Part shown: in pieces, positions 2,954-27,719 of the stretch | Position numbering within the stretch: the first letter of the stretch is position 1 | Layout of the letters: every line of letters starts with the position of its first letter | DNA from: an uncultured Opitutaceae bacterium | GTDB lineage: Bacteria > Verrucomicrobiota > Verrucomicrobiia > Opitutales > Opitutaceae | DNA length: 38,441 nucleotides | NCBI GenBank assembly: GCA_903916755.1 | Contig: CAIWXW010000098.1 | Coordinates: forward strand, 1 to 38,441 | Reading direction: 5' to 3' | Program-made: the position numbers and the translations under genes | The notes under the pieces: model-generated | The model's database searches: none | The model's input: the letters and a program-made list of their open reading frames with translations, nothing else | Told to the model about the DNA's origin: nothing

Positions 2954-3919
2954 ATGTCCCACGGTCCCCAATGGTCCCAGAAACTTCGCGACGAAATCGG
3001 CAAGGCCGTCATCGGCCAGGATGCCGTGGTCGAACGCCTCCTGGTCGCGCTGCTGGCCAACGGCCATGTGCTGCTGGAGGGCATGCCCGGCCTCGCCAAG
3101 ACCCTGCTGATCAAGTCGCTCGGCACGGCGCTCGGGGTGCAGTTCGAGCGCATCCAGTTCACGCCCGATCTCCTGCCGAGCGACGTGGTCGGAACCATGA
3201 TCTTCCAGCCGAAGACCGGCGCCTTCACCGCCCATCGCGGCCCGATCTTCGCCAACCTGGTCCTGGCCGATGAAATCAACCGGGCCCCGGCCAAGGTCCA
3301 GAGCGCGCTCCTCGAGGCCATGCAGGAACGCCAGGTGACGATCGGCGGCGAGACCCATCCCCTGCCACCGCCGTTCTTCGTCATGGCGACCCAGAATCCG
3401 ATCGAGCAGGAGGGCACGTACCCGCTGCCCGAGGCCCAGACCGACCGCTTCCTCTTCAAGCTGATCGTCCGCTACCCGAGCGCCGCCGAGGAGTCGGCCA
3501 TGATGCTGCGCTGGGGCCAGGTGACGAAGCAGCCCTCGCTTGTCGCCGCCTCCAGCGGCGAGGAACTGCTCCGGCTGCGGGCCGAGGTGGACCAGATCCA
3601 CGCGGCCCCCGCGCTGCAGGCCTATGTCCTGGCGCTGGTTCGGGCCACGCGCGAGCTCGCGCAGGGCGGACCCGCGGCCAAGCGCTACCTGAATTTCGGG
3701 GCGTCGCCGCGGGCCTCGCTGGCGCTCTATCAGGCCGGCCGGGCCCTGGCGTGGCTGCGCGGCCTCGACTATGTCTCCCCCGCCCTCGTGCAGGAGCTGG
3801 CGCCGGATGTCCTGCGGCACCGCATCGGCCTGACCTACGAGGCGGAGTCCGAGGAAATCACGGCGGACCAGATCGTCGGGCGGGTCCTGGAATCGACGCC
3901 CGTCCCGGCGGAGGCCTGA
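2954..3919 (+). CDS. MoxR-family AAA+ ATPase
   Basis: 321 aa, the usual MoxR length. Walker A is GMPGLAKT (residues 43-50) and Walker B is LADEINRAP, with the acidic pair near 106-107. Also present are MEAMQERQVT-like sequence (sensor region), MATQNPIEQEGTYPLPEAQ (sensor 1) and the AAA lid. MoxR ATPases act as chaperone-like partners of VWA proteins. Being first in this operon, it presumably works on the downstream DUF58, BatA and BatB proteins. The start at 2954 is chosen because homologous sequence begins there; an upstream in-frame start at 2882 would overlap the divergent gene. The next gene begins 2 nt after the stop. Confidence 0.93.
   Translation: MSHGPQWSQKLRDEIGKAVIGQDAVVERLLVALLANGHVLLEGMPGLAKTLLIKSLGTALGVQFERIQFTPDLLPSDVVGTMIFQPKTGAFTAHRGPIFANLVLADEINRAPAKVQSALLEAMQERQVTIGGETHPLPPPFFVMATQNPIEQEGTYPLPEAQTDRFLFKLIVRYPSAAEESAMMLRWGQVTKQPSLVAASSGEELLRLRAEVDQIHAAPALQAYVLALVRATRELAQGGPAAKRYLNFGASPRASLALYQAGRALAWLRGLDYVSPALVQELAPDVLRHRIGLTYEAESEEITADQIVGRVLESTPVPAEA
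3910..3914 (+). promoter_or_regulatory. ribosome-binding site that fixes a TTG start
   Basis: GGAGG lies inside the last codons of moxR, 7 nt before the TTG at 3922. There is no usable ATG or GTG close to the start of homology, so this site supports TTG as the start codon of the DUF58 gene and suggests translational coupling to moxR. Confidence 0.6.
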
Positions 3920-12298: not shown

Positions 12299-14149
12299 CT
12301 ACGGCGCGGCCGCATCCCGGGCGGCCTGGACCCGCGCCAGGCTCTCCCGGATCGCCGCGTCGCCGGGACGCAGCCGGACGGCTTCCTGGAGCTGGGCGGC
12401 GGCCTCCCGCAGCCGCCCGGCGTGCGCGAGGGCGATCCCAAAATTATTGCGCGAGGCGGCGTCCGCCGGCTCCAGGGCGACGGCCTGCTGGTAGCTTGTC
12501 GCCGCCGCCGCGGGCTGGCCCAGCTTGAAGAACGCGCTGCCCAGGGTGTTGAGCGCGTCCGGATAGTCCGGCCGCGCGGCGAGGGCCGCCCGCTCGTGCG
12601 CCACGGCCTCGTCCGCCCGGCCGGCGGCCAGCAGGGCCAGCCCGAGATTGTACTGCGCCTCCGCGTAGCGCGGCGCCGTCGCCACCGCCCGGAGGTACTC
12701 GGCGATCGCCTCGTCGGTCCGGCCCGCCCGCAGGAGAAGGGTGCCCAGGCCGTTGTGGGCCTGCGGGTAGCCCGGATCGAGCCGGGCGGCCGTGGCGTAT
12801 TGCTCCCACGCCCCAGCCGCGTCCCCGCTCTTCAGCAGGACGGCACCGAGATAGCCATGCGGCCGCGCCGCCGCCGGCCGTCGGGCCACCGTGTCCCGCC
12901 AGAGCCGCAGGTCACTCCCGTACACCGCATTGCGCCGAAACGTCAGGATGCCGTAGGCCGCGGCCAACGGCAGGCAGACGGCGCAGCAGACCAGGATGAC
13001 CCGCCCGCCCGCCCGCCGGGCTGCTTCCGCCAGCGCCAGGACCAGCAGCGCCCAGACGGCCGCCAGCGGCAGGTACATGCGGTGCTCCACGATCATCTGG
13101 GTCGTGCCGGGAATGACACTCGAGGTCGGGGCCAGGATCAGGAAGAACCAGCAGCCCAGAAACCCCAGCGCCCGGTGGCGCCGGCCGCAGGTGGCGGCGA
13201 CAGTCAGGCCCAGCAGCAGCCCGATCATCACCGCCGCGGGCACAACCTCGCCGGCGCCGCGGATCCAGAGGGTGCCATAGTCAAAGATCAGCGGATGGGG
13301 CCAGACCGACAGCCGGAGGTAGCGGACCAGCGCCGGGAACTGCGTGAGCGCGTAGGCCCACCAGGGCACGCCATTGCCGAAGCCGATCGAGCCCCCGCGA
13401 TTGTGCGTGCCGAGCATCAGGGCGCCGAGCAGGAGCCAGGTGGCCGCGAGCCCCCCGTGGCAGCCGCGTCGCGCGGCCCACGCCCCGCGGAAGGAGCCGG
13501 CGAGGAAGGCGCGGTCGTAGAGCAGGACGAGCAGCGGCGCCGCCACCATCACCTCCTTGGTCGCCATCCCGGCGGCGCAGGCCGCCACCGCGGCGACCGC
13601 CCAGGCCGCCCGGGCCCCGCCCGCGCCCGGCGGCGACTCTGCGTGCCGAATAAACGAATACAAGGTCAGCAGGAAAAACAGGCCCATCAGCGACTCCGCC
13701 CGTTGGATGGTGTAGGTCACCGCCTCGGTCTGCAGCGGGTGCACCGTCCACAGGAGCGCCACCAGGCCGCCCAGGACCGCCGGTGGCAGCGGGCCGCCGT
13801 CGCCGGGGGCCCGCTCCAGCGTCCGGCGCACGATCCCGAAGAGCGCCAGCCCGGCCAGCAGGTGGATCAGGAGGTTGCCGGCGTGGTAGCTCCAGACCGC
13901 CGGGCCGCTGATCGCGTAATTCAGGGCCAGCGACAGGTTCAGGATCGGCCGGCCGCCCACCGTCTGCCCGCCGGCAAAGGGCGGGTGGAGCACCGCCCCC
14001 AGGTCCCCCAGGTGCCGGATCGACCGATTTTCCAGGATGGAGCCCGCATCATCGTAGGTGAAGGGCCCCCTGAAGCTGCCGGCGTACGCCGCCAGGCCGG
14101 CCAGCACCAGGATCACGGCCATCAGCCGGCGGACCGCCGGGGCCTTCAT
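12299..14149 (-). CDS. TMTC-like polytopic membrane protein with C-terminal TPR repeats (short paralogue)
   Basis: 616 aa. The first roughly 410 residues are a polytopic membrane domain resembling GT-C glycosyltransferases. FTYDDAGSILENRSIRHLGDL after the first helix carries an acidic DD pair where GT-C enzymes keep their catalytic acid. LLWTVHPLQTEAVTYTIQRAESL matches the conserved block of TMTC-type proteins. The C-terminal part has about six 34-residue TPR units (for example AHNGLGTLLLRAGRTDEAIAEY), probably periplasmic. By analogy it could transfer a sugar from a lipid carrier to a protein or envelope glycan, but no substrate can be deduced. Its ATG overlaps the stop of the longer upstream paralogue by 4 nt. 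Confidence 0.7.
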   Translation of the reverse strand: MKAPAVRRLMAVILVLAGLAAYAGSFRGPFTYDDAGSILENRSIRHLGDLGAVLHPPFAGGQTVGGRPILNLSLALNYAISGPAVWSYHAGNLLIHLLAGLALFGIVRRTLERAPGDGGPLPPAVLGGLVALLWTVHPLQTEAVTYTIQRAESLMGLFFLLTLYSFIRHAESPPGAGGARAAWAVAAVAACAAGMATKEVMVAAPLLVLLYDRAFLAGSFRGAWAARRGCHGGLAATWLLLGALMLGTHNRGGSIGFGNGVPWWAYALTQFPALVRYLRLSVWPHPLIFDYGTLWIRGAGEVVPAAVMIGLLLGLTVAATCGRRHRALGFLGCWFFLILAPTSSVIPGTTQMIVEHRMYLPLAAVWALLVLALAEAARRAGGRVILVCCAVCLPLAAAYGILTFRRNAVYGSDLRLWRDTVARRPAAARPHGYLGAVLLKSGDAAGAWEQYATAARLDPGYPQAHNGLGTLLLRAGRTDEAIAEYLRAVATAPRYAEAQYNLGLALLAAGRADEAVAHERAALAARPDYPDALNTLGSAFFKLGQPAAAATSYQQAVALEPADAASRNNFGIALAHAGRLREAAAQLQEAVRLRPGDAAIRESLARVQAARDAAAP

Positions 14150-16293
14150 GGTCCCGGAGTGCGCGGCAGCGACCGCAGCCGGGCCAGATTCCGCTGGGCG
14201 TCGGCGTAGTCCGGCCGCAGCCGGACCGCCGCCTCGAATTCATAGCCGGCCTCGCCGAGGCGGCCCAGCTGCGCCAGGGTGCCGCCGAGATTGTTGTGGG
14301 TCGTGGCGTCATCCGGCGCGAGCCGCAGCGCCTGCTGGTACTCGGCCACCGCCTCCGCGAGCCGCTGCATCCCCACCAGGGCGTTGCCCAGGCTCGCATG
14401 CGCCTCTGCGTAGGCCGGCCGGATCCGAATGGCCTGCTGGAGATTGGCGATCGCCTCCGGCAGCTGGTCCGCATCGATCAGGGCGCTGCCCAGGCTGTTG
14501 TACGCCTCGGCGTCCCGCGGATTGAGCCGGAGCGCCGCCTGGTACTGCTGGATCGCCTCCGGCACCCGGTGCAGCTGCACCAGCGCATTGCCGAGATCGT
14601 CATGGGCGTCCCCGTAGTCGGGGCGCCGCCGCAGCACTTCCCGGTAGCGGGCGACCGCCCCGTCCAGCTGCCCCGCCTGCTCAAGGGCGATGCCCAGGTT
14701 GAGTTCGGCATCGGGATAGTCCGGCTGCAGCCGCAGCGCCTCCTGGAACTGCGCGATCGCCTCCGGCACATGGTTGGTCTGGGCCAGGACGTTCCCGAGA
14801 TTGTTGTGCGCCTGCGCAAACCGGGGCCGGAGCCGGATCGCCTCGCGATACTCCGCACCCCCCTCGTCGGTCCGGCCCAGGGCCGTCAGGGCGATCCCGA
14901 GGTTGTTGTGGGCCTCGGCGTAGCTGGGCTGGATCTGCAGCGCCGCCCGATACTGTGCGATCGCCCCCGGCGCGTTTCCCTCAGCGTACAAGACCACCCC
15001 CAGGTTATAGTGGGCGTATTCGTTGGCCGGGTGCTTCGCGACCGTGTCCGTCCAAATAGACTCCTCGGTGCGGTAATCGTAGTTGCGCGCGAGCGTGCCT
15101 CCCACCGCCGCCAGGGCCAGGACCGTCGCCAAGGCGGCCGCCAGCGCCCGCGGGCCGCGCCGCCGCAGGCGGCCGCCCACCCCGACGACCCCCAGCGCGA
15201 TCAGGGCGGCCAGGGGCAGGTACATCCGGTGCTCGGCCGCGGTCTGGCGGATGCCCGGCACGATGCTGCTGGTCGGCGCCAGGATCACGAAGAACCAGGC
15301 CCCCAGGAACCCCAGCACGGGCCGGCGCCGCAGCGCCCAGACCGTCGCGGCCAGAAGAGCCAATACGACGACCGCATAGGGCACGACATCCCAGGCGCCC
15401 TGGGCCCATTCCGTGCCGTAATCGAAGACCAAGGGAGACGGCCAGAACGCCAGTTTCAGGTAGCGGGCCACGGCCCGGAACTGGCTCAGCGCATACTGCC
15501 ACCACGGGATCGCCACCCCGAAGCCGATCGATCCCCCGCGGTTGCCGCCCGTCCCGCCCACCAGCCAGGCCAGGAGGAGCCAGGTGGCCGCCAGCCCAAG
15601 GTGCAGCCGGCGATGGCGCCTCCAGGCGGCCTTGAACGAGCCGCTGACGAACGTCCGGTCGTAGAGGAAGACCAGGACCGGCGCGGTCACCATGGTCTCC
15701 TTGGTCGCCATGCCCGCCAAACACGCCAGCCCCGCCAGCCAGAACCAGGGTCCGGCGGACCGGGCCGGAGCCTCCTCGCCGTCCGCCCCCCGGACGAACC
15801 CGTAAAAGGTCAGCAGAAAGAACAGCGCGGCCAGCGACTCCGCCCGCTGGGCGATATAGGTGACCGACTCGACCTGGAGCGGATGCACCGTCCAGAGCAG
15901 CGCAATGACGCCGGCCAGGCCCGCGGCCGCCTCCACCTTCATCCGGCGCAGGGTGCGATGCGCCAGGCCCAGGAGGGTCAGGCCCGCCAGCAGGTGGAAA
16001 AGCAGGTTGGCCGCGTGATAGCTGCCCACGTGCGTGCCGGTGAGGGCATAGTTGACCGCCAGCGAGAGATTGAGGAGGGGCCTTCCGCTCGTCGTCGCGC
16101 CATTCAGCGCCGGCGGCGACAGGACCGTGCCGAGGTCACCCAGGTGCCGGATGGAGAGGTTCTGAACGATCGACGGCTGGTCATCGAAGAGGAAGGGAAC
16201 CGCCAGGCTATCCGCGTAAGCCACGATGCCCGCGGCCGCGATCAGGGCTCCCAGCAGCAGGAGGGTTCGGCGGGTTTCCCCGGGGCCAGGCAT
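14146..16293 (-). CDS. TMTC-like polytopic membrane protein with nine TPR repeats (long paralogue)
   Basis: 715 aa, clearly homologous to the following gene over the membrane domain (FLFDDQPSIVQNLSIRHLGDL and LLWTVHPLQVESVTYIAQRAESL). The membrane part takes about the first 410 residues with ten or so hydrophobic segments. The rest is about nine TPRs with the regular AHNNLG / AEAHxxLG pattern, three more than the paralogue. It is first in the pair as transcribed. The DD pair near the N terminus is kept, so both copies may be active. A possible alternative is a structural scaffold without transferase activity. No good SD or promoter is obvious in the 60 bp upstream, which is directly followed by the receptor gene's terminator. 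Confidence 0.7.
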   Translation of the reverse strand: MPGPGETRRTLLLLGALIAAAGIVAYADSLAVPFLFDDQPSIVQNLSIRHLGDLGTVLSPPALNGATTSGRPLLNLSLAVNYALTGTHVGSYHAANLLFHLLAGLTLLGLAHRTLRRMKVEAAAGLAGVIALLWTVHPLQVESVTYIAQRAESLAALFFLLTFYGFVRGADGEEAPARSAGPWFWLAGLACLAGMATKETMVTAPVLVFLYDRTFVSGSFKAAWRRHRRLHLGLAATWLLLAWLVGGTGGNRGGSIGFGVAIPWWQYALSQFRAVARYLKLAFWPSPLVFDYGTEWAQGAWDVVPYAVVVLALLAATVWALRRRPVLGFLGAWFFVILAPTSSIVPGIRQTAAEHRMYLPLAALIALGVVGVGGRLRRRGPRALAAALATVLALAAVGGTLARNYDYRTEESIWTDTVAKHPANEYAHYNLGVVLYAEGNAPGAIAQYRAALQIQPSYAEAHNNLGIALTALGRTDEGGAEYREAIRLRPRFAQAHNNLGNVLAQTNHVPEAIAQFQEALRLQPDYPDAELNLGIALEQAGQLDGAVARYREVLRRRPDYGDAHDDLGNALVQLHRVPEAIQQYQAALRLNPRDAEAYNSLGSALIDADQLPEAIANLQQAIRIRPAYAEAHASLGNALVGMQRLAEAVAEYQQALRLAPDDATTHNNLGGTLAQLGRLGEAGYEFEAAVRLRPDYADAQRNLARLRSLPRTPGP

Positions 16294-16409: not shown

Positions 16410-19400
16410 TTAGAAGTCCAGCTTGGCGCCGATTTCGGCCTGGTACCGGGAGAGATCGGTAAAGGTCGTGACCGGGTCGAGCGTGTTCGAGTTGAAGTAG
16501 TAGATGTACTGGCCCTGGCCGCCGTTGCCGGCCGCGTTGTAGCTGGCGCCCGCCACGCGACGGTAGTACGGGAAGTCCTCGCCGCTCACGATGCCCCAGC
16601 TGCGATTGAAGAGATTCGCGAAGTTGGTGCAATCGACGTACAGCGAGAGGCGGGCGTGGCCCGTGATCGGGATGCGCTGCTCGAGATGGACGTCGATCGT
16701 GTGCTCCCAGGGGCTGTAGGCCGTGTTGCGGCCGACAATCTTGCCCATCTCGTTGCGCAGGGACGAGGTCGACAGCCAGCTGAAGAAGTTGGCTTCCTCC
16801 GTCGCGCTGTTCCAGCCGACCTTCGGGTCGCTCGGGCCCGAGGGGACGTAGAACAGATCGTTGCTGCTGAATCCGTCGCCGTTGGCGTCACCCGTGAAGG
16901 TCCAGGTGTAGGGATGGCCGCTCTGCACGCGGAAGACCGCGGTCAGGACCGTCTTGGCCTTCGCGTCGTTGAAGAAGTTGAACTGGCGCGAGAGCTGCGC
17001 GACGAACTTCTGCGGGACGTTGTAGTCGGAGGTGGCCGCGACATCCTCGTTCGGATTGGCGTAGGCGCGGCTGGTGAAGTTCGACGAGGCCACCGACGAG
17101 CGCAGGGCGCTCACATCGGTCGCGTGCTCATGCGTCCAGTAGAACGAGAAGGACCAGTCGTGGATCATCGGCCGGGCAATCGCCAGGGTCGTGTCGGCCG
17201 ACATGCCATGGTCGGTGTTCACGAGCTCGTAGGCGTTGTTGAAGTTCGTGTTCTGCACCAGGGTCGCGGACCCGGCCGAGGTCGACGAGGTCGGGACACC
17301 CACGACACCGGTGTTGAAGCCGGGGTAGATGTTGCCGTTGAAGCGCTGGCGGCCGTCCGGCATGAACTGCGAGCCGGAGGTGGCGCGGAGCTGGTTCCAG
17401 ACCTTCCAGCTGGCGGCCTTCTCGACGCGCAGGTAGTCCTGCTCGGCCGTGAAGACCAGGTTCAGCCAGGGCAGCTCATGATCGATCGCGATGTTGGTCT
17501 TCCACGACGCCGGCGGCTTGAAGCCCTTCTGGACGAAGTTGAGGATCGGCACCGGGGGGCTGCCCGCGGGAACCTGCTGGGTGAACGGGTTCGGATTGAA
17601 CGTCAGGGTCGCATCGACCGCCGCCGTCGGGGTGACGCGGCCAAGGGTGCCGTTCATGTCATAGGAGTCCGCCAGCCACACCGCGGGGTTCGTGCCCTGG
17701 AAGAGGCCGGCGCCGCCGCGGACCTGGGTCTTGAGACCATCCATCTTCGGGAGATCGTAGTTGAACGAGAGCCGGGGCTCGACGGTGTAGTTGCCGTTGT
17801 CCGTGTAGGTGTTGTTATAACCGAACGCGTTGACGAACGGGGCATTGTAGAGCGGCTTGTTCGAAACGTACGGGTCGTCCACGCGGACGCCGTAGGTCAG
17901 GGTCAGCTTGTCCGAAGGACGCCACTGGTCCTGGATGCCGGCGCCGAAGATGGTGTACGCGAAGTTGGCGAAGGCCGCCGAGATCGGGTTGCCATTGAGG
18001 CCGGTCGCCAGGGAGTAGGACGTGATGCCGTTGCCCGCGGCGAACGCGGCGGCATTGTTGAACGTGTAGCTGCCGTAGGCGGCCTGGACGAAGTCATCCA
18101 GGGCCCAGCTGCGGTCGGAATCCACGCCGGCGGTGATCTTGTGATTGCCGATCGTGTAGTCGCCGTAGAACTTGCCGACCGTGTCGCTCGTGAAGGTCAG
18201 GTTCAGCTGGCGGGAGAATTCCGTGCCGAGGTGGACGGTGCCCGAGGTGGTGGCGGCGCCGGTCGCGACGATCGTGCCGGGGACGTTCGCGATGAACACC
18301 TCGGGGAACGGCGTGCCGTTGTTGATCGGGGAGGCCACATACTTGGTGTATTCGGCCGTCAGCTCCGTGTGGAGGTCAGGCGTCCAGTTCGAGTCGATCT
18401 GGGCTTCCCAGGCGTTCGTCAGGCGGGGCTGCTGGTACCAGTAGTTGCTGAGGGACGTCGTGCCGGAGGCGTTGAAGCTCGCGAACTGCGGGACGGTCGT
18501 GTCGTTGCGCCGGTAGGTGACCGACAGGCGGTGCTGGTCGGAGATGACCCAGTCGATCTTGCCGACGTAGGTCTTGCCGGTGCTCAGCGCGTTGGCGTTC
18601 AGGTTGCCGGCGGCGTAGTTATACTTGGTCTGCGCGGTGGAGACGATCGAGGCCAGGGTGGTGGCGTCCGGGACGTAGGCCGGGCTCGGCGGCGCCGAGA
18701 CGTTGTGGATGTAGTCGTAGGCGAAGAAGAAGAAGAGATGGTTCTTGATCAACGGGCCGCTGAACGTGGCGGTGTCGCGGTAGTTGCGATAGGTCTCCTG
18801 GGCTCCCGTGACCGGGTTCTTGCCGCGCAGGGCCTGGTCGGAGTAGGAGTAGCGGAAGGAACCGTGGAAGTCATTCGTGCCGGATTTGATGACCGCGTCA
18901 ATCAGGGCGCCGGTGAAGCCGGTGAACTGGATGTCGTAGGGGTCGAGCTGAATCGAAACGGACTGCAGGGCGTCGTACGGAATCGGGCTGAACCAGGAGG
19001 ACGTCCCGTTGCCGTTGAGGCCGAAGGTGTCGTTCACCTGCACGCCGTCGATCAGGTAGGAGTTGTAGCGGTAGTTCTGGCCGGCCGCGCTCAGCTGGTA
19101 CTCACCGGTGGAAGTATTCTCCACCAGGGTGAAGCGCGAGTCGTTCTGGGCCAGATCCTGCAGATCCTGGCGGATGCTGGGGGTCTGGGTGACGGCGTAG
19201 GCGTCAAGAGTGTTGACCGTGCCGGTCTTGTTCACCCCGAAGGTGTCGCCGCGCTCTTCCTGGACGCTCATGGCCTCGAGGGTGATCACCTCGGAGCTGA
19301 CCGTGAAGTTAACGTCGGGCGTGGTGCCGAGCTCGATGTAGGTGCCCGCCTGGGTCGAGGGCGCCATGCCGGGGGCCGAGACCGTGATGGAGTAGGGCCC

Positions 19401-19640
19401 ACCGAGGCGCAGACCGGAGAAGTTGTACTCGCCGTTGCCCTGCGTGACCGCAGTGGAGCGGGAATTGGTCGACGTGTTGGTCGCGACAACCGTCGCGCCG
19501 GCAACTGCCTTGCCACCCTTATCGGTGACGAAGCCGGCAATTGAGCCCGTCGTGGCGCTCTGACCGAAGACGCTATTGGTGAGTACGAAAAGCAGGGCAA
19601 AGAGCCCCGCCAGCAGGTATCGCGGTGATTTGTAATGCAT
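16410..19640 (-). CDS. Oar-like TonB-dependent outer-membrane receptor with N-terminal carboxypeptidase-regulatory-like domain
   Basis: 1076 aa. A signal peptide (about 1-26, ending SVFGQS) is followed by a transthyretin-like domain (about 30-118, GSIAGFVTDKGGKAVAGATV). A plug-like region comes next (RYNSYLIDGVQVNDTFGLNG), then a long beta-barrel rich in alternating aromatic residues that ends in Phe, as required for BAM insertion. The TTR-plus-barrel architecture matches Oar-type receptors, used for export or import of large substrates. The ligand is unknown, and no substrate-binding SusD partner is encoded nearby. It is divergent from an ECF sigma factor, but no anti-sigma gene lies next to either. 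No strong ribosome-binding site is seen before the ATG at 19640. Confidence 0.85.
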   Translation of the reverse strand: MHYKSPRYLLAGLFALLFVLTNSVFGQSATTGSIAGFVTDKGGKAVAGATVVATNTSTNSRSTAVTQGNGEYNFSGLRLGGPYSITVSAPGMAPSTQAGTYIELGTTPDVNFTVSSEVITLEAMSVQEERGDTFGVNKTGTVNTLDAYAVTQTPSIRQDLQDLAQNDSRFTLVENTSTGEYQLSAAGQNYRYNSYLIDGVQVNDTFGLNGNGTSSWFSPIPYDALQSVSIQLDPYDIQFTGFTGALIDAVIKSGTNDFHGSFRYSYSDQALRGKNPVTGAQETYRNYRDTATFSGPLIKNHLFFFFAYDYIHNVSAPPSPAYVPDATTLASIVSTAQTKYNYAAGNLNANALSTGKTYVGKIDWVISDQHRLSVTYRRNDTTVPQFASFNASGTTSLSNYWYQQPRLTNAWEAQIDSNWTPDLHTELTAEYTKYVASPINNGTPFPEVFIANVPGTIVATGAATTSGTVHLGTEFSRQLNLTFTSDTVGKFYGDYTIGNHKITAGVDSDRSWALDDFVQAAYGSYTFNNAAAFAAGNGITSYSLATGLNGNPISAAFANFAYTIFGAGIQDQWRPSDKLTLTYGVRVDDPYVSNKPLYNAPFVNAFGYNNTYTDNGNYTVEPRLSFNYDLPKMDGLKTQVRGGAGLFQGTNPAVWLADSYDMNGTLGRVTPTAAVDATLTFNPNPFTQQVPAGSPPVPILNFVQKGFKPPASWKTNIAIDHELPWLNLVFTAEQDYLRVEKAASWKVWNQLRATSGSQFMPDGRQRFNGNIYPGFNTGVVGVPTSSTSAGSATLVQNTNFNNAYELVNTDHGMSADTTLAIARPMIHDWSFSFYWTHEHATDVSALRSSVASSNFTSRAYANPNEDVAATSDYNVPQKFVAQLSRQFNFFNDAKAKTVLTAVFRVQSGHPYTWTFTGDANGDGFSSNDLFYVPSGPSDPKVGWNSATEEANFFSWLSTSSLRNEMGKIVGRNTAYSPWEHTIDVHLEQRIPITGHARLSLYVDCTNFANLFNRSWGIVSGEDFPYYRRVAGASYNAAGNGGQGQYIYYFNSNTLDPVTTFTDLSRYQAEIGAKLDF

Positions 19641-20074: not shown

Positions 20075-20818
20075 ATGAATACCACGACCTCCCCCGCCCC
20101 GACCCAGACCGCTCCGTCCGCCGCCCGTACCGAACGCTCGATCGCCGCTCAGGCCGGAGCCGCTCATGACGCCGAGTTGGTCAGCCGCTTCAACAAGGGC
20201 GAGGAGTCCGCCTTTCTGGAGATCATGACCCGGTATCAGGCCAAGATCTTCACCGTGACCCAGGGGCTGCTCCACAACCGGGGCGATGCCGAAGAGATCA
20301 CCCAGGACACCTTCGTCCGCGCCCACCGCAATCTCGGGGGCTTCCGCGGGGATTCCTCGCTCGCCACCTGGCTGCACCGGATCGCGGTCAACCTGGCCCG
20401 CAACCGTTACTGGTACTTCTTCCGCCGCCGCCGGCACGCCACGCTCTCCCTCGACTGCCCGATCAGCGACGAAAGCGACGCCACCCTCTCCGACCTGATC
20501 TGCGCCGACGCGCCCGATCCGGCCCGGATCAGCACCCGCGAGGAGTTCGGTACCCTGGTTTCCGAGTGCATGGACACCCTCGAGTCCCACCACCGCGAGG
20601 TGCTGGTCCTCCGGAATGTCCACAACCATTCCTACGACGAGATCGCCGCCCGCCTGGGGATCAACGTCGGCACGGTCAAGAGCCGGATCGCCCGAGCCCG
20701 GGAAAGCCTTCGCGTGAAGCTGGCGGAAACCTGCCCGGAGTTCGCCCCGGATGCCGACCCCTCCGACTGGTTCGAGCCCGTCCGCAATCCGGGCCGCCTC
20801 GTGCCGGCCTGGGCCTAA
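20075..20818 (+). CDS. ECF-type RNA polymerase sigma factor (RpoE-like)
   Basis: 247 aa, slightly long because of a roughly 30-residue Thr/Pro/Ala-rich N-terminal leader. Sigma region 2 spans about residues 35-110 (AFLEIMTRYQAKIFTV, DAEEITQDTFVRAHRNL, ATWLHRIAVNLARNRYWYF). Region 4 spans about 165-225 (LESHHREVLVLRNV, SYDEIAARLGINVGTVKSRI), the helix-turn-helix that binds the -35 element. The tail of about 25 residues is rich in Asp and Pro. No anti-sigma factor gene follows: a terminator comes next and then a convergent gene. Regulation may therefore be transcriptional, or through an anti-sigma factor elsewhere. The divergent receptor gene is an obvious candidate target, by position only. 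Confidence 0.9.
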   Translation: MNTTTSPAPTQTAPSAARTERSIAAQAGAAHDAELVSRFNKGEESAFLEIMTRYQAKIFTVTQGLLHNRGDAEEITQDTFVRAHRNLGGFRGDSSLATWLHRIAVNLARNRYWYFFRRRRHATLSLDCPISDESDATLSDLICADAPDPARISTREEFGTLVSECMDTLESHHREVLVLRNVHNHSYDEIAARLGINVGTVKSRIARARESLRVKLAETCPEFAPDADPSDWFEPVRNPGRLVPAWA

Positions 20819-20841: not shown

Positions 20842-20874
20842 CCCCGGGATCGCTCTGCGGTCCCGGGGTTTTTT
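20842..20874 (+). terminator. rho-independent terminator of the ECF sigma factor gene
   Basis: CCCCGGGA (20842-20849) pairs with TCCCGGGG (20861-20868), followed by six T residues. It lies 23 nt after the sigma-factor stop and between convergent genes. Confidence 0.88.
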
Positions 20875-20913: not shown

Positions 20914-22602
20914 CTAATAGGTGGGCGTCGCCAAGGGGCTGTTCACGTCCGCACTGCCCACCCCCACGATCCGCCAGTTATTGACCGGGGTCGAGGGGAT
21001 CACATGGTGCCGTTCCACCCAGTCGATCAACAGATCGCGGATGGGCACGCTGGCCCGCATGACGACGGGTGCGGTCTTGAACATCGCGTACCCGCCGCCA
21101 CCGCTGTAGCGGTAGTTGTTCATCGCCAGTCGGAAGGTCTGGTCGGGCTGCAGCGGCGCCCCGTGATACATAAGATGCTGGATCCGATCACCATAGGGAC
21201 GACTAATGTCCATTTCGTAGGAGACGCCCTCGGCCTTGTCGAAGTTGTAGAGATAGAAGTCAGGGTTCACCAGCTGGCTCAGGGTCTTGCCGGGCGCATA
21301 GGGCAGGAAAAACCGCGCCGAATGCTCCAGGGCCTCCTTCAGCTGCCGGCCGGTGGCCTGCACGACGACCAGGGTATTCTCATACACATAGAGGGCGGCC
21401 AGCTCCCGCACCGTCGTCTGCCCCGCGTGGATCCGCGCCTGGGGGTTGAAGACCGACGCCAGCGAGACGTCCGCCGAGCCCGCCTCCAGCTGCACCCGCT
21501 GGACCAGGTCGAGCATGGCCGAATCCGCGAAATTTGAGCGGGAATCGAGATCACGGTCACAGGTGCCCACGGGTTGGGACAGCCAGCGCTCGGTCTCCTC
21601 ATGATAGGGCTTGGCCAGCCGAAGAACCTCCGGATCGGGGGTGACGCCCTGCATCGAGAGCGAGACGCTGGACTTGGCCGTGACCTGCCAGGCCCCACCG
21701 CCCGCCCGCTCGAAATAGAGGTCGGCCTTGATGAGGTGGTCGCCCCACCGCCCCGCCTGCGCCAGCAGGACACCGTTGACCACCAAATTGGGAACGTCCT
21801 GGTGGGTATGGCCCATCAGGATCAGGTCCACGCCCGGCACCTCGCGGGCGATGGCGATCGCGCGATTCTCATTTGGCACCGCCCCGACGGCGGTGGCACC
21901 CGTGCCCAGGTTCTGCTCGAGACCCATGTGCATGGTGATCACTACCGCGTCGACATGCTCGTCCCGGCGGAGCACGGCGACCCATTTGCGGGCCTCCGCC
22001 ACCGGCTCGCGGAATTCCAAGCCGGGATAGTTTTCCGGACCGTCCCAATAGGGAACACCGGGCGTCGTCAGTCCGAGGATGCCGATCCGCACTCCCTTCA
22101 CCTCCTTGACGATGTAGGGGGTGTAGGCCGATTGGCCGGTGTCCTTGCGGTAGATGTTGGCCGAGATCCACGGAAACCGGGCCTCCGCGTGCGCCTTGTC
22201 CTGCACCGCCAGGCCAAAATTGAAGTCATGGTTGCCCAGCGCCATCGAGTCATAGTGCAGGTAGTTCATCACCAGCATCATGGGGTCGATCGGGGCGTTG
22301 TTACGCCGCGCGTGAAAGTAGACCAGCGGATTGCCCTCCAGCGTGTCGCCGCTGTCCACCAGCAGGAGCCAGGGGTCGTCGGAGCGCAGCCGCTGGAGGA
22401 CACTCGAAATCTTGGCCAGGCCCCCCTCGTACGGAAAATCATTCGAATAATCGACGGGATAGATCCGGCCGTGCAGGTCGGTGGTCGAGGCCAGCGTGAC
22501 GTGGGCGTACGCCGCGCCGTCGGGCGCCGGCGCGGCGCCGAGCGCCGAGGCCAGGCCCAGCAGGGCGACCGGCCAGAGAAGAAGGGCGGCGGGGGTTCTC
22601 AC
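20914..22602 (-). CDS. periplasmic 2',3'-cyclic-nucleotide phosphodiesterase / nucleotidase (CpdB/UshA family)
   Basis: 562 aa from a GTG start with a signal peptide (about 1-23). The metallophosphoesterase core is complete: TTDLHG (Asp42, His44), DSGDT (83-87), GNHDFNFG (123-130), the HMGLE block and GHTHQD. The C-terminal 5'-nucleotidase domain has NNYRYSGGGGYAMF, which clamps the base. TTDLHG and the NNYR-SGGGG loop are more like CpdB (2',3'-cyclic nucleotides and 3'-nucleotides) than UshA, but substrate class cannot be settled by eye. It starts within the stop codon of the upstream nuclease gene (GTGA, 4-nt overlap), so the two proteins are made together. Confidence 0.87.
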   Translation of the reverse strand: MRTPAALLLWPVALLGLASALGAAPAPDGAAYAHVTLASTTDLHGRIYPVDYSNDFPYEGGLAKISSVLQRLRSDDPWLLLVDSGDTLEGNPLVYFHARRNNAPIDPMMLVMNYLHYDSMALGNHDFNFGLAVQDKAHAEARFPWISANIYRKDTGQSAYTPYIVKEVKGVRIGILGLTTPGVPYWDGPENYPGLEFREPVAEARKWVAVLRRDEHVDAVVITMHMGLEQNLGTGATAVGAVPNENRAIAIAREVPGVDLILMGHTHQDVPNLVVNGVLLAQAGRWGDHLIKADLYFERAGGGAWQVTAKSSVSLSMQGVTPDPEVLRLAKPYHEETERWLSQPVGTCDRDLDSRSNFADSAMLDLVQRVQLEAGSADVSLASVFNPQARIHAGQTTVRELAALYVYENTLVVVQATGRQLKEALEHSARFFLPYAPGKTLSQLVNPDFYLYNFDKAEGVSYEMDISRPYGDRIQHLMYHGAPLQPDQTFRLAMNNYRYSGGGGYAMFKTAPVVMRASVPIRDLLIDWVERHHVIPSTPVNNWRIVGVGSADVNSPLATPTY

Positions 22603-23672
22603 GGCGCAGGGGGGGCTTGCTTGGTCGCCTGCCGCTGAACCAGCTCGGACTGCAGGAACACGTCGGGACCGGCTTCGCGCCAGGCCGTGAGCCAGAGGGA
22701 TCCGAGCATCTGCGATCCCTTGAGGATCTGTTCCTCGATGAACGGCTTGCCGTCCAGGCTACCCGGGGTGCCGTCGGCCTTGAGCTTGCCCTCCTTCTCC
22801 AGCCGGTAGAGGGGCTCGACCTCCTTGTTCTGCCCGATGACGAAATTCATGATCGCGACAAAAATGGGGCTCCGTCCGTCGGGCCGCACTGCCGTGTCGA
22901 GGACCTGCGCCGGAACGACGCGCGGCTCGAGGCTCTTTTCGGTGATGCCCGCGCGGCCAATGAACCCGCCGCCGGCGCCGCCGCCGTCGATCCAGTCATG
23001 GATCGACGACCGCCGCGTGTAGCCATTCGGATTGGACACCTTCCAGCCGAATCCGCCCCAGCCATGATGGTGGACCGTGACGTGCAGGGGCTGGGAGCTG
23101 TCGCCCACAAAATGGCCCATCAGGCCCATCAATTCGACGATCAGGCTCTCGGTGTTGGCCACATCGGCCGGCGTGCCGTACTGGCGGTAAGTTTTCCATT
23201 GGGAAAAGAGCTCCTGCAGCTGCCCGTAGTCGTTGGCGACCGCCCAGGGCAGGGTCCCGGGCAGCTGGTAGCGGTGGTTGTAGTCCCGTTCCGGCTCGAG
23301 CGGCGGGAACTGATCGGCGTGCGCGGCCCGGGCGGCGGCGAACTGCACGATGAAGTCGTCCAGGAAGGGCGTGACCGTCGTCGGATCGATGCCGGCGGCG
23401 GTAAGCTGTTCCAGATCGATGTCGTGCTCCTGGTCGACGATCTGGCGGAACGGGCCGCTGTGCGAGCTCCGCCAGCGGTCCGGCTCGGTCCCGAGGAAGA
23501 CGATCCGCTGCGCGTTGACCCCGTCCCGCACAAAGGCCGGAAAATCCGCCGGCAGGGAATTGAGGGCCAGCTGGTTGATGGCTCGGTGGGTCGGGGCGGC
23601 CCAGGCGTGCAGGGCCACCGGCAAGGCCGCCGCGAAGAAGACGGAAAGACAGAGGGGGAGGCGCATTTTCAT
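22599..23672 (-). CDS. secreted S1/P1-type zinc nuclease
   Basis: 357 aa with a signal peptide ending at HA/W. The mature protein begins at Trp24 (WAAPTHRAINQLAL), whose amino group and side chain are zinc ligands in this family. GHFVGDSSQPLHV (186-198) supplies further His/Asp ligands (His187, Asp191, His197), and DYNHRYQ and SIHDWID are also family-like. S1/P1 nucleases cut single-stranded DNA and RNA to 5'-nucleotides in the periplasm or outside. Distantly related zinc phospholipase C enzymes share the fold, but the nuclease is the better match. It is overlapped by the CpdB-like gene and lies 35 nt after the amidase stop. Confidence 0.82.
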   Translation of the reverse strand: MKMRLPLCLSVFFAAALPVALHAWAAPTHRAINQLALNSLPADFPAFVRDGVNAQRIVFLGTEPDRWRSSHSGPFRQIVDQEHDIDLEQLTAAGIDPTTVTPFLDDFIVQFAAARAAHADQFPPLEPERDYNHRYQLPGTLPWAVANDYGQLQELFSQWKTYRQYGTPADVANTESLIVELMGLMGHFVGDSSQPLHVTVHHHGWGGFGWKVSNPNGYTRRSSIHDWIDGGGAGGGFIGRAGITEKSLEPRVVPAQVLDTAVRPDGRSPIFVAIMNFVIGQNKEVEPLYRLEKEGKLKADGTPGSLDGKPFIEEQILKGSQMLGSLWLTAWREAGPDVFLQSELVQRQATKQAPPAP

Positions 23673-23707: not shown

Positions 23708-24853
23708 TCAGGACGGACGGCGGGGCGGTTGGAAGCCTTTGGGCGGAGCGGATTCCGGAGCCGCGGGAACAGCCGGAAGCAGATGCGCAGCCGCCGGGGC
23801 CATTCCGTGCGCCGCACCCGGACGAAGGCTATCGATGGCCGCGACATAGGCGTGGATCCCCGCCAGCATGGCCTCTGCCATCTCCTGCCGAAACGCGGGC
23901 GTCGCCACGCGCCGGCCCTCCGCGTCATTGGTGAGGAAGGCGGATTCGACCAGGATGCCGGGACAATTGAGCGGCCGGAGCACGCCCAGGTGCCGCAGGC
24001 GCTCGCCCCGGTCCTCCGTGCCGAGGCGGCGGTGCAGTTCCTCGTGCATCGCATGGGCGAAGAGCACGCTCCAGGCGTTGAAGCGAACGACCGAGGCCAG
24101 GCCCAGCTCGCCGTCATCGACTCCGGAACCCCAAGACGCGGTGGCGCGCTGGTGCTCCGGCGGGAAGGTATAGACCTCCGTGCCGTGAGAGCTCACGTCC
24201 GAAGCCGTGCCGCCGGCGTTGAAATGTATGCTGAGGAAGAGATCGGCGTGCTTCGTGTTGGCGAATTCCGCGCGCAGAGGCAGGTCAACCTTGGGATCGT
24301 TCGCGAAGCGGCTGTCGTTGGTGCGGGTCATCACCACCTGGTAGCCCTGCGCCTCGAGCAATTTCCGCAGCCGCAGGCCCACATCGAGGGTGAAGGTTTT
24401 CTCCATCAGATGGAGCCGGGGATTCTGGGTGCCATTGTCCGAGCCGCCATGCCCGGGATCGATCGCGATCACATGCACGGAGGGCGGCGGCGGGGACGCC
24501 GCCGGACGCAGGAGCGGCAGCAACCGGTGCTCGAAATCGATCCGGCTGAAATAGAGCTGGCCGGCGCGCACGACCGTCGGGTCGCCCAGGAAGATCTTCA
24601 GCCCGTCGAGGCTGATTTCCTTGAGGTCGGTGGCGCCCGGGGCCGGCACCTCCAGGTGGTGGGCGCCGTCGCTGAGCAGCAGCCGTTTGGCGCCCTCATA
24701 GCGCACCTTGAGCCCGAGCCGGGCCGCGACGTCGGTCGCGCGCACGTATTCCACCCTGCCAATGCGCACATTGGCGATCGGGGTCGGCCCCGCGGCGCGC
24801 AGGAGGGCCGCGCCAAGCAAAAAGCCCAGCAGACGGAGAGCCGCCCGCGCCAT
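23708..24853 (-). CDS. N-acetylmuramoyl-L-alanine amidase (Amidase_3)
   Basis: 381 aa from the ATG at 24853, which gives a clean signal peptide; further upstream the frame overlaps infC. Residues 25-115 resemble the copper-amine-oxidase-like / AMIN-type N-terminal domain of such enzymes (VEYVRATDVAARLGLKV). A proline linker leads to the catalytic domain: DPGHGG (His135), LMEKTFTLDVGLRL (Glu151), LSIHFNA (His210) and the catalytic Glu303 in ILVESAFLTND. All zinc ligands and the catalytic acid are present. It cleaves the bond between MurNAc and the stem peptide, acting in cell separation or wall turnover. The C terminus is an Ala/Pro-rich tail. It starts 7 nt after the infC stop. Confidence 0.9.
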   Translation of the reverse strand: MARAALRLLGFLLGAALLRAAGPTPIANVRIGRVEYVRATDVAARLGLKVRYEGAKRLLLSDGAHHLEVPAPGATDLKEISLDGLKIFLGDPTVVRAGQLYFSRIDFEHRLLPLLRPAASPPPPSVHVIAIDPGHGGSDNGTQNPRLHLMEKTFTLDVGLRLRKLLEAQGYQVVMTRTNDSRFANDPKVDLPLRAEFANTKHADLFLSIHFNAGGTASDVSSHGTEVYTFPPEHQRATASWGSGVDDGELGLASVVRFNAWSVLFAHAMHEELHRRLGTEDRGERLRHLGVLRPLNCPGILVESAFLTNDAEGRRVATPAFRQEMAEAMLAGIHAYVAAIDSLRPGAAHGMAPAAAHLLPAVPAAPESAPPKGFQPPRRPS

Positions 24854-24860
24854 GGCCCGA

Positions 24861-25562
24861 TCAGGCGCCCGTGGCCGCAGCCGGAGGCTTGGGGGGACGG
24901 GGAGCGCGCGGAGCCTCTTCGGCCGGACCTTCGTCTTCCGCCCCTTCCTCAATCTGCGCGCCGTGATGGAGCTTCGGCTTCCGCTTGTTGACCGGGAGCG
25001 GCGTCAGCATCACGTGAATGTTGCGGCCGAGCAGCTTGGGCTCGGCGTCGGGATGGCCCATGCCGTCCAGCTCCTTCATGCCGCGCTTGATGACCTCGAA
25101 GCCGATCTCCGTATGGGCCATTTCACGGCCGCGGAACTTGAGCCGGAGCTTCACCTTGTTGCCGTGCGCGAGGAACTCCTCGGCGTGCCGCAGCTTGGTC
25201 ATGAAGTCGTTGTCGGCGATCCGCGCCGTGAACTCGATTTCCTTGATCTTGCTGCCGGTCGGCTTCGTGTGGGAATGCTTCTTCTGCTCCTCGTACACGT
25301 ACTTGCCGAAATCCATGATGCGGCAGACGGGCGGCTGCGCGGTGGGGGCCACCTCGACCAGGTCGAGGCCCACCTCGAGCGCGAGGTTGATCGCCTTCGG
25401 CGTGTCCAGGATGCCGAGCTGCTTGCCCTCGGGCGAGATCACCCGGACCTGCGGGACCTTGATGCGGTGGTTGCGGCGAATGCCGGCAAACGGGTCGTTA
25501 TTACGACGCTGAAAATAAGCGGGGCGGCCGCCAGTGCCGGCGGGAGAAAACGGTAAGGCCAT
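24861..25562 (-). CDS. infC: translation initiation factor IF-3 with a C-terminal extension
   Basis: 233 aa from the ATG at 25562, against about 180 for typical IF-3. The N domain has RRNHRIKVPQVRVISPEGKQ and LDLVEVAP, followed by CRIMDFGKYVYEEQKK. The C domain has KEIEFTARIADNDF, KVKLRLKFRGREM and HVMLTPLP. IF-3 binds the 30S subunit and checks the start codon. The extra 45-50 residues are acidic and then Pro/Ala-rich, with no known role. infC genes often use unusual starts, and no good SD precedes this ATG, so a start nearer the RRNHRI block is possible. The usual neighbours rpmI and rplT are absent here; an amidase gene follows instead. Confidence 0.93.
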   Translation of the reverse strand: MALPFSPAGTGGRPAYFQRRNNDPFAGIRRNHRIKVPQVRVISPEGKQLGILDTPKAINLALEVGLDLVEVAPTAQPPVCRIMDFGKYVYEEQKKHSHTKPTGSKIKEIEFTARIADNDFMTKLRHAEEFLAHGNKVKLRLKFRGREMAHTEIGFEVIKRGMKELDGMGHPDAEPKLLGRNIHVMLTPLPVNKRKPKLHHGAQIEEGAEDEGPAEEAPRAPRPPKPPAAATGA

Positions 25563-25593
25563 CAATAGTTCGGTCTGGTGATTAGTGGCGGCA

Positions 25594-25622
25594 AGTATCG
25601 GGCCAAGCCGGCCCCATGACAA
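25594..25622 (-). promoter_or_regulatory. sigma-70 promoter of infC
   Basis: On the minus strand TTGTCA (25617-25622) and GATACT (25594-25599) are separated by exactly 17 nt. This is the best-formed promoter in the window. It would give a leader of roughly 25 nt before the infC ATG and uncouple infC from the upstream lpxA-pdxA-iscA genes. Confidence 0.6.
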
Positions 25623-25649: not shown

Positions 25650-26033
25650 TCAGACGCTGAAGCTCTCGCCGCAGGAACAGCTGGCCTTGGCATTGGGGTT
25701 CGTGAACTTGAACCCGCCACCGATCAATTTGTCGGAGTAATCGACCAATGTCCCCTTGAGATAGAGGGCGGTCTTGGGATCGACCAGGACGGACGCCCCG
25801 GCCGTCCGGACCAGGATGTCGCCCCGGTTGGGCTCGGGGGTGAACCGGAGCTTGTAGCTCAAGCCGTTGCAACCGCCGCCGCTGATCGCCACCCGCAGGA
25901 AATCGCCCTGGCCCTCGCGGGCGATCAGCGCCCGGACCTTCGCTCCGGCCGGTTCGGTCAGGGCCACCAGGCGCTCATTGCCCTCCCGCACCCCTTCCAG
26001 GGGGGCGGCGGGCGCGGTAGCGGTCGAATTCAT
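25650..26033 (-). CDS. A-type iron-sulfur carrier (IscA/ErpA/HesB family)
   Basis: 127 aa. An N-terminal Ala/Thr-rich extension of about 20 residues precedes the conserved domain: VRALIAREG, LRVAISGGGCNGLSYKL (Cys55), VLVDPKTALYLKGTLVDYSD and the C-terminal CSCGESFSV (Cys119, Cys121). These three cysteines bind the cluster that is handed to target proteins. Whether it is IscA-, ErpA- or SufA-like cannot be decided without phylogeny. Its ATG overlaps the pdxA stop (ATGA), so it is translated with pdxA. Confidence 0.9.
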   Translation of the reverse strand: MNSTATAPAAPLEGVREGNERLVALTEPAGAKVRALIAREGQGDFLRVAISGGGCNGLSYKLRFTPEPNRGDILVRTAGASVLVDPKTALYLKGTLVDYSDKLIGGGFKFTNPNAKASCSCGESFSV

Positions 26034-26956
26034 GCTGACTTCAATGCAACCAGTTTTCGCGCAATTGCGACCGCATTTGCGAAACTTCGGGGGCTGGCCC
26101 GGCCCTGGCCGGCGATGGAAAAGGCAGTTCCGTGGTCCGGGCTGGTTCGGATATGGGGCAGCCCCAGGGTCACGTTCACGGACTCGTCGAAATCCACGGT
26201 CTTAAGCGGCGCCAGGCCCTGGTCGTGATAGAGCGCCAGGACGACGTCGAACTCGCCCCGCAGCTGCCGGGCAAAGACCGTGTCGCCGGCCTGCGTCCGG
26301 GACAGTCCCGGAAACTGGGGCCGGAGCGCATCCAGCAGAGGATCAATGACGTCGCGCTCCTCGGTGCCGATGATGCCCCCCTCCCCCGCATGCGGGTTGA
26401 GGCCGCAGACGCCGATGCGAACGGGTGCGGCCGGCCCCAGATCGGCCCGGGCGAGCTCCGCGGCGGCCCGCACGGTGCGCGCAAAATCAGCCGCGGTGAG
26501 ATGGGCGGGGACCTCGCGGAGCGGAATGTGCCAGGTGAGGAGGGCCACCCGCAGCTTGCCGCCGGAGAAGGCCATGGTGGGCGCGCCGCCCCAGCGCGCC
26601 GCAAAAAACTCGGTCTGGCCGGGAAACTCCCAGCCGATCCGGACCAGTTCCGCCTTGCTGATCGGCCCCGTCACCGTGCCCGCGAACTCCCCGGAGCGGC
26701 AGCCGGCAGCCGCGCGCTCGAGGGCGGCCCAGGCGACCAGGGCGCCCTCCCCGCTCGGCTGGCCGGGTTCGGCCGCGAAGTTCTCGAGACCGACGGGGAT
26801 CCTGGCTCCCGCTGTCGGCAGTGTTTCCAGCCAGCGGGCCGGCCCGATCACCGCGGTCTGACCCGCCTCGTCGGGATGGGCCGCGAGCCAGGCCGCCACG
26901 ACCTCCGGCCCGATGCCGGCCGGGTCGCCGCAGGTGAGGGCCAGAAAGCCGCTCAT
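26030..26956 (-). CDS. pdxA: 4-hydroxythreonine-4-phosphate dehydrogenase
   Basis: 308 aa from the ATG at 26956; the open frame extends upstream over lpxA but homology begins at LALTCGDPAGIGPEV. Other family blocks are TGPISKAELVRIG, FPGQTEFFAARWG, the metal-ligand histidines in LLTWHIPL, GLNPHAGEGG and ALYHDQGLAP, and GLPHIRTSPDHGTAFSIAG near the C terminus. It oxidises 4-phosphohydroxy-L-threonine using NAD in the DXP-dependent route to pyridoxal phosphate. Length is a little short of E. coli PdxA but all active-site blocks are present. It sits 7 nt after lpxA. Confidence 0.93.
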   Translation of the reverse strand: MSGFLALTCGDPAGIGPEVVAAWLAAHPDEAGQTAVIGPARWLETLPTAGARIPVGLENFAAEPGQPSGEGALVAWAALERAAAGCRSGEFAGTVTGPISKAELVRIGWEFPGQTEFFAARWGGAPTMAFSGGKLRVALLTWHIPLREVPAHLTAADFARTVRAAAELARADLGPAAPVRIGVCGLNPHAGEGGIIGTEERDVIDPLLDALRPQFPGLSRTQAGDTVFARQLRGEFDVVLALYHDQGLAPLKTVDFDESVNVTLGLPHIRTSPDHGTAFSIAGQGRASPRSFANAVAIARKLVALKSA

Positions 26957-26963
26957 GGCGCGC

Positions 26964-27719
26964 TCAGGCCTCGGACAAGACCCCGGGCGTCCGCTTCCGG
27001 ACAAAGCCCCGCTTGCCCGCCGCGAAGAATTCCAGGAACTGGCGGCTCTCGGCCACCTCGTAGCGGCCGGTGGCGAGGGCGGCGGCGGCGTGCTCGCGCA
27101 GGTTGCCGACGGGCCCATAGACCGCCCGGAAGGCCTCCTTCAATTCCCGGACGGCCTCCGGCTTGAGCCCGCGGCGCCGGAGGCCGACCAGGTTCAACCC
27201 GGCCAGCTCGTCCCGCTCCGCCACCATCGTGAAGGGCGGAATATCGAGGGTGATGCGCGAGATCCCCCCGACGATGGCGTTCTCGCCGATCCGGACAAAC
27301 TGGTGGAAGGCGGCGCCGCCGCCCAGGATGGCGCGATGGCCGACCTCGACATGGCCGGCCAGGAGGACGGCATTGGCGATCACCACACCGTCGCCGACCA
27401 CACAGTCATGCGCCACGTGGCTGCCGGCCATCAGCAGGCAGTTCTGGCCGACGACGGTGTACGCGCCCTCGCCCGTGGCGCAGTTGATCGTGACGTTCTC
27501 GCGGATCTTGGTGCCCGAGCCGACCTTCACGCCGCAGCGGGTGCCCGGCACGAACTTAAGGTCCTGGGGATCGCCCGCGACCACGGCAAAGGAATGGACC
27601 ACCACCCGGTCGCCCAGGATGGCGCCGCGCTTGACGATCGCATAGGGATGAATCTCGCAGTCGGCGCCCAGCTGGGCGCCCGCTTCGACGATGGCCGTGG
27701 GATGGATCTGGGTCGGCAT
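26964..27719 (-). CDS. lpxA: UDP-N-acetylglucosamine acyltransferase, first step of lipid A synthesis
   Basis: 251 aa. The N-terminal two-thirds is a left-handed beta-helix of hexapeptide repeats starting IHPTAIVEAGAQLGADCEIH. SHVAHDCVVGD holds the catalytic histidine (His104), and GGGAAFHQFVRIG and VGLRRRGLKPEAVRELKEAFR are typical of LpxA rather than LpxD. LpxA transfers the 3-hydroxyacyl chain from ACP to UDP-GlcNAc in the cytoplasm. Its presence indicates a lipopolysaccharide-bearing outer membrane. The gene is not grouped with lpxB, lpxD or fabZ here, but with pdxA downstream and an uncharacterised gene 13 nt upstream. Confidence 0.94.
   Translation of the reverse strand: MPTQIHPTAIVEAGAQLGADCEIHPYAIVKRGAILGDRVVVHSFAVVAGDPQDLKFVPGTRCGVKVGSGTKIRENVTINCATGEGAYTVVGQNCLLMAGSHVAHDCVVGDGVVIANAVLLAGHVEVGHRAILGGGAAFHQFVRIGENAIVGGISRITLDIPPFTMVAERDELAGLNLVGLRRRGLKPEAVRELKEAFRAVYGPVGNLREHAAAALATGRYEVAESRQFLEFFAAGKRGFVRKRTPGVLSEA

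Follow-up and report, generated by a model that had tools for sequence, protein, structure and literature searches.

A putative exported three-zinc phosphodiesterase of an infC-amidase gene string in Opitutaceae and the lineage-specific nucleotidase gene beside it

Do two overlapping genes for probable exported phosphoesterases form a dedicated unit that scavenges phosphate or nucleosides, or is their pairing a local feature of one lineage? The question is raised by contig CAIWXW010000098.1 (assembly GCA_903916755.1) of an uncultured Opitutaceae bacterium, all 38,441 nucleotides of which were analyzed (hereafter the window). On its minus strand a gene encoding a 357-residue protein resembling the S1/P1 nucleases (22599..23672) is followed by a gene encoding a 562-residue CpdB/UshA-type nucleotidase (20914..22602), the GTG start of which overlaps the upstream stop by the four bases GTGA (22599-22602). 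An earlier note, made from the sequence alone, had described this overlap, signal peptides on both proteins and complete metal sites in both, and had read the pair as a scavenging unit. Both open reading frames (ORFs) and the overlap were confirmed, and both proteins have signal-peptide-like starts as judged by eye. The reading we favor, and consider rather probable, is that the 357-residue protein is an exported three-zinc (Zn3) phosphodiesterase belonging to a string of genes that includes infC and an amidase gene, to which a CpdB-like gene was attached in one lineage. The pairing of the two genes is not a conserved design. The pair is real and mostly ordinary, the notable features being the gene string and an altered nucleoside pocket in the S1/P1-like family.

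Conservation of the pair was assessed in 250 genomes of the same family (Opitutaceae) and in 288 genomes drawn from the phylum. Within the family the S1/P1-like gene was present in 133 genomes, fragments and one copy interrupted by several stops being counted. The nucleotidase ortholog was present in 39 (matches at E 1e-90 or better, 35 more genomes with weaker matches being excluded). Both genes were found in 10 genomes vs 20.7 expected (Fisher odds ratio 0.25, p=2e-4, with relatedness of the genomes ignored). When all nucleotidase-like matches at E 0.001 were admitted, both were present in 26 of 74 genomes vs 39.4 expected (odds ratio 0.35, p=3e-4). The survey of other genomes that the earlier note had proposed thus gave a pair rarer than expected in the family. 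Tandem order was seen in the window genome (G000) only, among the 10 genomes with both genes. In G010, which belongs to the window's genus, the genes are convergent with abutting stops (in locus L020 the S1/P1 stop ends at 3559 and the nucleotidase stop begins at 3560), and in G132, of another genus of the family, they are convergent and about 1.3 kb apart. The genes lie far apart on one contig in G015 and G080 and on separate contigs in the remaining five genomes. The earlier note would have given up its proposal had the pair been found together only in close relatives: the tandem order is restricted in this way, whereas convergent neighbors extend to the other genus represented by G132. In the phylum survey the S1/P1-like family was found in 18 genomes at E 1e-20 and nucleotidase-like matches in 47 at E 1e-30; six genomes had both (G000, G015, G018 and G080 with a close ortholog, G069 and G123 with weak matches), and adjacency was seen in the window genome only.

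The same picture was obtained from 80 S1/P1-like loci, the best 80 of at least 512 confirmed stretches. They are labeled as Opitutaceae or other Verrucomicrobiota; some of them coincide with contigs of the surveyed genomes, and one is a contig of G010. The loci end at contig ends, and at least 1.7 kb of downstream sequence is present in 73 of the 80. Within the available sequence the nucleotidase gene is present in a single locus (L076), where it is convergent. In G012, also of the window's genus, the nucleotidase gene follows the amidase gene on the same strand with no S1/P1 gene between them, and tblastn detected no S1/P1 relic in this interval (best E 6). The nucleotidase gene ends the gene string in 3 of 13 genomes of the window's genus, in one or the other orientation and whether or not the S1/P1 gene is present. 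Its placement is local clustering, a lineage-specific addition rather than one half of a conserved operon pair.

According to the scavenging proposal, the nuclease makes nucleotides, the nucleotidase strips off phosphate and the coupled pair supplies phosphate or nucleoside. The four-base overlap, the exported look of both proteins and the presence of PhoU-family proteins in the window genome are as this proposal would have it, and a precedent exists in Vibrio cholerae, where a nuclease (Dns or Xds) and UshA, CpdB and PhoX form a route for use of extracellular DNA and the nucleases are induced by low phosphate (from excerpts of PMC4723616). The deficit of genomes with both genes, the solitary tandem arrangement and the differing orientations in G010 and G132 argue against it. 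A scan of the window for Pho boxes, which the earlier note had suggested, found none with three mismatches or fewer (0.97 expected by chance; the consensus was of the E. coli type, which may not apply), and a promoter scan found one vs 1.1 expected. The concentrative nucleoside transporter (CNT) family PF07662 had no match in the window genome, an assembly that is 93% complete, other transporter families not having been searched. There was no sign of phosphate control in this analysis, and we consider a dedicated scavenging unit unlikely.

The conserved partner of the S1/P1-like gene is the amidase gene upstream. In the window the minus strand carries, in order of transcription and with Pfam assignments, genes for PdxA (26030..27118), an IscA/ErpA-type Fe-S_biosyn protein (25650..26033), translation initiation factor IF-3 (infC, 24861..25622) and an N-acetylmuramoyl-L-alanine amidase (Amidase_3, 23708..24853), and then the S1/P1-like gene. 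The amidase ORF as listed opens with a TTG at 24952, and the probable start is the ATG at 24853 directly behind the infC stop (24861). The same four genes recur in this order upstream of the S1/P1-like gene in related loci. Of the 79 loci with sufficient sequence, 58 have an amidase gene as the immediate upstream neighbor, co-directional and at most 1.5 kb away, and both the amidase gene and infC are upstream in 55 of 75. The iscA-type gene can be seen in the available sequence of 47 of the 58 amidase loci, and pdxA in that of 43. Eleven of 16 other genomes with S1/P1-like matches keep this order, G016 and G036 have an amidase gene nearby in the opposite orientation, and G014, G017 and G023 (4-kb contig) lack an amidase in the available stretch. 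The earlier note had mentioned the amidase, and this link proved to be the feature that is conserved. Two tandem amidase genes were observed between infC and the S1/P1-like gene in L023, L027, L031, L039, L048, L057, L060, L064 and L072 (in L031 the S1/P1 gene is convergent; L064 and L072 represent the contigs of L023 and L027 a second time).

Four-base overlaps are ordinary between co-directional neighbors. One recurs at the amidase/S1P1 junction, where the distance is -4 in 15 of 56 loci, negative in 20 and at most 12 bases in 29 (all distances rest on start codons chosen by script), and was seen once at the S1P1/nucleotidase junction. These figures bear on a further reading, that the S1/P1-like gene is a passenger carried behind infC and the amidase gene by vertical synteny with no functional tie to either neighbor. 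The tight junctions speak against a mere passenger, as they persist although the S1/P1-like proteins of these loci are mostly less than 50% identical to the window protein. In its favor, 117 of the 250 family genomes have no S1/P1-like match, and the named neighbors are diverse where no amidase gene is nearby. Ten neighbors from such loci searched against Pfam were a mixed set, 3 of the 10 giving no match, and no shared neighbor of the loci lacking a nearby amidase was identified by what was crude gene calling. The simple longest-ORF caller, which also yields false ORFs at this G+C content, called no neighbor in 21 of 80 loci, including 5 of the 20 that lack an amidase gene close by. It placed one ORF cluster in 22 loci (3 without amidase) and another in 10 (2 without), either of which may consist of false ORFs. 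We regard the passenger reading as a real possibility, if not the expected one.

What does the 357-residue protein do? The protein alone recovered no relatives in the genome-contig search, whereas a profile search did find relatives. It had no match to NCBIfam or PHROGs at E 0.001 or to PF00882, the phospholipase C model, at E 0.1. In a sequence search of the PDB its best E was 0.12; with a profile, S1/P1 nucleases of plants and bacteria were reached at E values from 2.3e-5 to 9e-4, and P1 nuclease at no better than 0.15. PF02265 was matched by all 18 members of an initial family alignment (E 0.1 or below, the lowest 3.3e-8), PF00882 by one of the 18, weakly (0.016). A larger alignment of 66 rows comprised the window protein and 65 of the 80 loci. 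The 15 loci outside it were 11 judged by eye to be near-duplicates plus L049 and L069, which have one extra residue between the first Trp and His, L095, for which the script chose a wrong start (ligands present), and L075. In this last locus the S1/P1-like copy (8001-9029) is interrupted by a single in-frame stop and otherwise has the zinc ligands.

Nine putative zinc ligands (W24, H29, D65, H83, H187, D191, H197, H225 and D229) are invariant in both alignments. They agree in order, and closely in spacing, with W27, H32, D71, H88, H141, D145, H151, H175 and D179, the zinc ligands of SmNuc1 of Stenotrophomonas maltophilia as listed in excerpts of PMC11705217. R68 corresponds to SmNuc1 R74, and its position is Arg or Lys in 65 of 66 rows. 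An Ala precedes W24 in 65 of 66 rows, as required if Trp is to become the N-terminal residue after export. Signal peptidase would cut after A23 to free W24, the predicted mature N-terminus, the amino end of which may help hold the three-zinc cluster; the conservation and predicted fold are consistent with such a role. Hence, the metal chemistry of the protein is probably kept, and the claim of complete metal sites stands at the level of motifs and ligands. It does not extend to the nucleobase site.

That site is not canonical. The base-stacking Phe or Tyr of S1 and SmNuc1 directly follows the ligand corresponding to H83 (S1 residues from excerpts of PMC5201275). Across the 66 rows this position is Tyr in 44, Phe in 20 and Asp in 2, the Asp rows being the window protein (D84) and L076, the protein of which is identical to the G010 protein of L020. 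The two form a clade (support 100/83) on long branches (0.92 and 0.82 vs a median end branch of 0.34). Of the other pocket positions, D86, which corresponds to D83 of S1 nuclease (PMC5201275, excerpts), is Asp in 66 of 66 rows, and G204, at the position of the nucleoside-site backbone Gly, is kept in 65 of 66. The position at the S1 offset of the Asn of nucleoside-binding site 1 (NBS1) is Val in 48 rows, Thr in 6, Ala in 5, Ser in 3, Phe in 2, Gly in 1 and Glu in 1. W205 and N214 are invariant instead, and N214 may stand in for this Asn, depending on the alignment. As the stacking residue kept in 64 of 66 rows is gone from the window protein, nuclease activity is plausible but unproven, and the altered pocket makes the substrate less certain than the earlier note assumed, above all in the window's genus. 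A second S1/P1-like copy in the window genome (L035 3038-4078, on contig C162 of G000) is 49% identical to the 357-residue protein, keeps the stacking Phe, has Asn at the place of SmNuc1 N91 and adjoins ORFs that by eye resemble glycolate-oxidase-type genes. A PF02265 search of this genome gave no match at E 0.001, yet both copies were found by protein or profile, and the profile search added a third, weak match (6.3e-5).

An AlphaFold2 model built from the window protein and 65 related sequences (mean predicted local distance difference test score 93.9, predicted template modeling score 0.91) has the phospholipase C (PLC)/P1-nuclease fold. In VIA-align the model scored Z 17.7 to a plant bifunctional nuclease (root-mean-square deviation 3.6, 215 residues aligned), the nucleases spanning Z 17.7-16.5 vs 16.9-14.5 for phospholipases C. 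Since the best scores of the two groups differ by less than 1 in Z, the fold cannot choose between nuclease and phospholipase. The protein could then be a PLC-like enzyme that acts on lipid phosphodiesters of the envelope, which would suit an amidase partner; the tied fold, the loss of the base-stacking aromatic from the window protein, the lone weak PF00882 match and the envelope enzyme as usual neighbor are all in keeping with this view. The PF02265 matches of all 18 family members, the invariance of the Asp equivalent to S1 D83 and the retention of Tyr or Phe in nearly all rows count against it. The Bacillus cereus PLC has a longer Trp-His spacing and Glu as its last ligand, whereas the window protein is like SmNuc1 in both its spacing and its final Asp. 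A phospholipase C-like activity seems improbable to us.

Several findings also weigh against the reading that we favor. The PF02265 score of the 357-residue protein (20.3 bits) is below the gathering cut-off of 29.5, and the Foldseek search ranked SmNuc1 first at an E of only 3.5e-3, all rows lying above 0.001. The Z of 16.9 to Listeria phospholipase C is nearly that of the best nuclease, D84 replaces the Tyr or Phe of the family, and all 66 rows lack the NBS1 Asn at the S1 offset. Moreover, the two genes lie within 1.5 kb of one another in 3 of the 10 genomes where both occur, 2 of the 3 being of the same genus; this is above random placement and was counted as favoring some link.

With these points weighed, an exported Zn3 phosphodiesterase of the gene string with a lineage-specific nucleotidase gene attached remains the reading we prefer. 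The substrates of the 357-residue protein would most likely be nucleic acids or nucleotides, cut either in the periplasm or extracellularly. Its gene usually is the last of the pdxA - iscA-type - infC - amidase - S1/P1 string, where the frequent overlap with the amidase gene suggests co-translation, and in a few genomes of the window's genus a CpdB-like nucleotidase gene stands at the string end. In the window genome the two enzymes might act in sequence, the nucleotidase converting the products of the nuclease to nucleosides and phosphate. A bolder proposal makes the amidase and the S1/P1-like enzyme a conserved envelope module joined by translational coupling. Its Zn3 phosphodiesterase, with a remodeled substrate pocket, would cut a phosphodiester of the envelope or of debris, rather than bulk nucleic acid, alongside peptidoglycan cleavage, the pocket having changed again (stacking Tyr/Phe to Asp, on long branches) in the window's genus where the nucleotidase gene joined the string. 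We consider this highly speculative and very unlikely as a whole.

The downstream 562-residue protein scores above cut-off with both PF02872 (110.5 bits) and PF00149 (45.8 bits) and has five metallophosphoesterase motifs (TDLHG at residue 41, DSGD at 83, GNHD at 123, TMHMG at 223 and GHTHQ at 264). In NCBIfam it is closest to CpdB-type models, far under the equivalog cut-offs (267.4 vs 486 for NF006938 and 240.1 vs 883 for TIGR01390), and the UshA model gave 174 bits vs a cut-off of 600. The N-domain aligns to CpdB (3jyf) and YfkN (3gve), and over its full length the protein is best matched in the PDB by 3qfk/4q7f, of the 5'-nucleotidase family. The enzyme classes of the earlier note, an S1/P1 nuclease and a CpdB-like nucleotidase, thus appear broadly right when put as a Zn3-type protein of the PLC/P1-nuclease superfamily and a CpdB/UshA-type nucleotidase.

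Beyond the nucleotidase gene lies an intrinsic-terminator-like hairpin found by pattern match (20842..20868, plus strand, 12 pairs then T6), between the end of that gene and a convergent gene on the opposite strand for a sigma-70-family factor resembling the extracytoplasmic function (ECF) type (20075-20818). G012 has at the same place a gene 63% identical to it (L117 8633-9214). Farther along, 16410-19640 encodes a large beta-barrel protein of the outer membrane that has a carboxypeptidase-regulatory domain and, below threshold, a plug domain; homologs of this protein also adjoin the cluster in G010, G012 and G001. Two adjoining tetratricopeptide repeat (TPR) proteins are encoded at 12299-16293, and their ORFs share four bases (14146-14149).

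To our knowledge few bacterial S1/P1-like enzymes have been characterized. A literature search on P1 nuclease and Opitutaceae returned no papers, and one on Verrucomicrobi returned none on this enzyme by title. The conserved infC-amidase-S1/P1 string provides a defined context for asking if enzymes of this kind feed the cell or help turn over its envelope, and the case illustrates how little a four-base overlap seen in a single genome says about a functional link between two genes.

How do these proteins compare with known systems? The V. cholerae nucleases Dns and Xds belong to other families than the S1/P1-like protein. The V. cholerae route shares with the window pair the logic of a nuclease plus a periplasmic nucleotidase and differs in the low-phosphate induction described in excerpts of PMC4723616, no sign of which was found for the window genes. 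CpdB, YfkN and UshA share with the 562-residue protein the Metallophos and 5_nucleotid_C domains, a signal-peptide-like start and the five motifs, from which it departs in its sub-equivalog scores and in having 3qfk/4q7f as best full-length match. The zinc-dependent phospholipases C (B. cereus PC-PLC, PF00882) have the same superfamily fold as the 357-residue protein, tied by Z, and that of B. cereus differs in its Trp-His spacing and last ligand. Unlike the S1/P1 nucleases, the window protein has a GW...N-P stretch after the QPLH ligand with no Asn at the S1 offset, an Asp at the base-stacking place and a PF02265 score under the cut-off. SmNuc1 (PDB 8QJL) is smaller when mature (246 vs about 340 residues) and, as far as excerpts of PMC11705217 describe it, has in common with the window protein the helical fold, the nine ligand positions, the N-terminal Trp and the Arg after the first Asp ligand.

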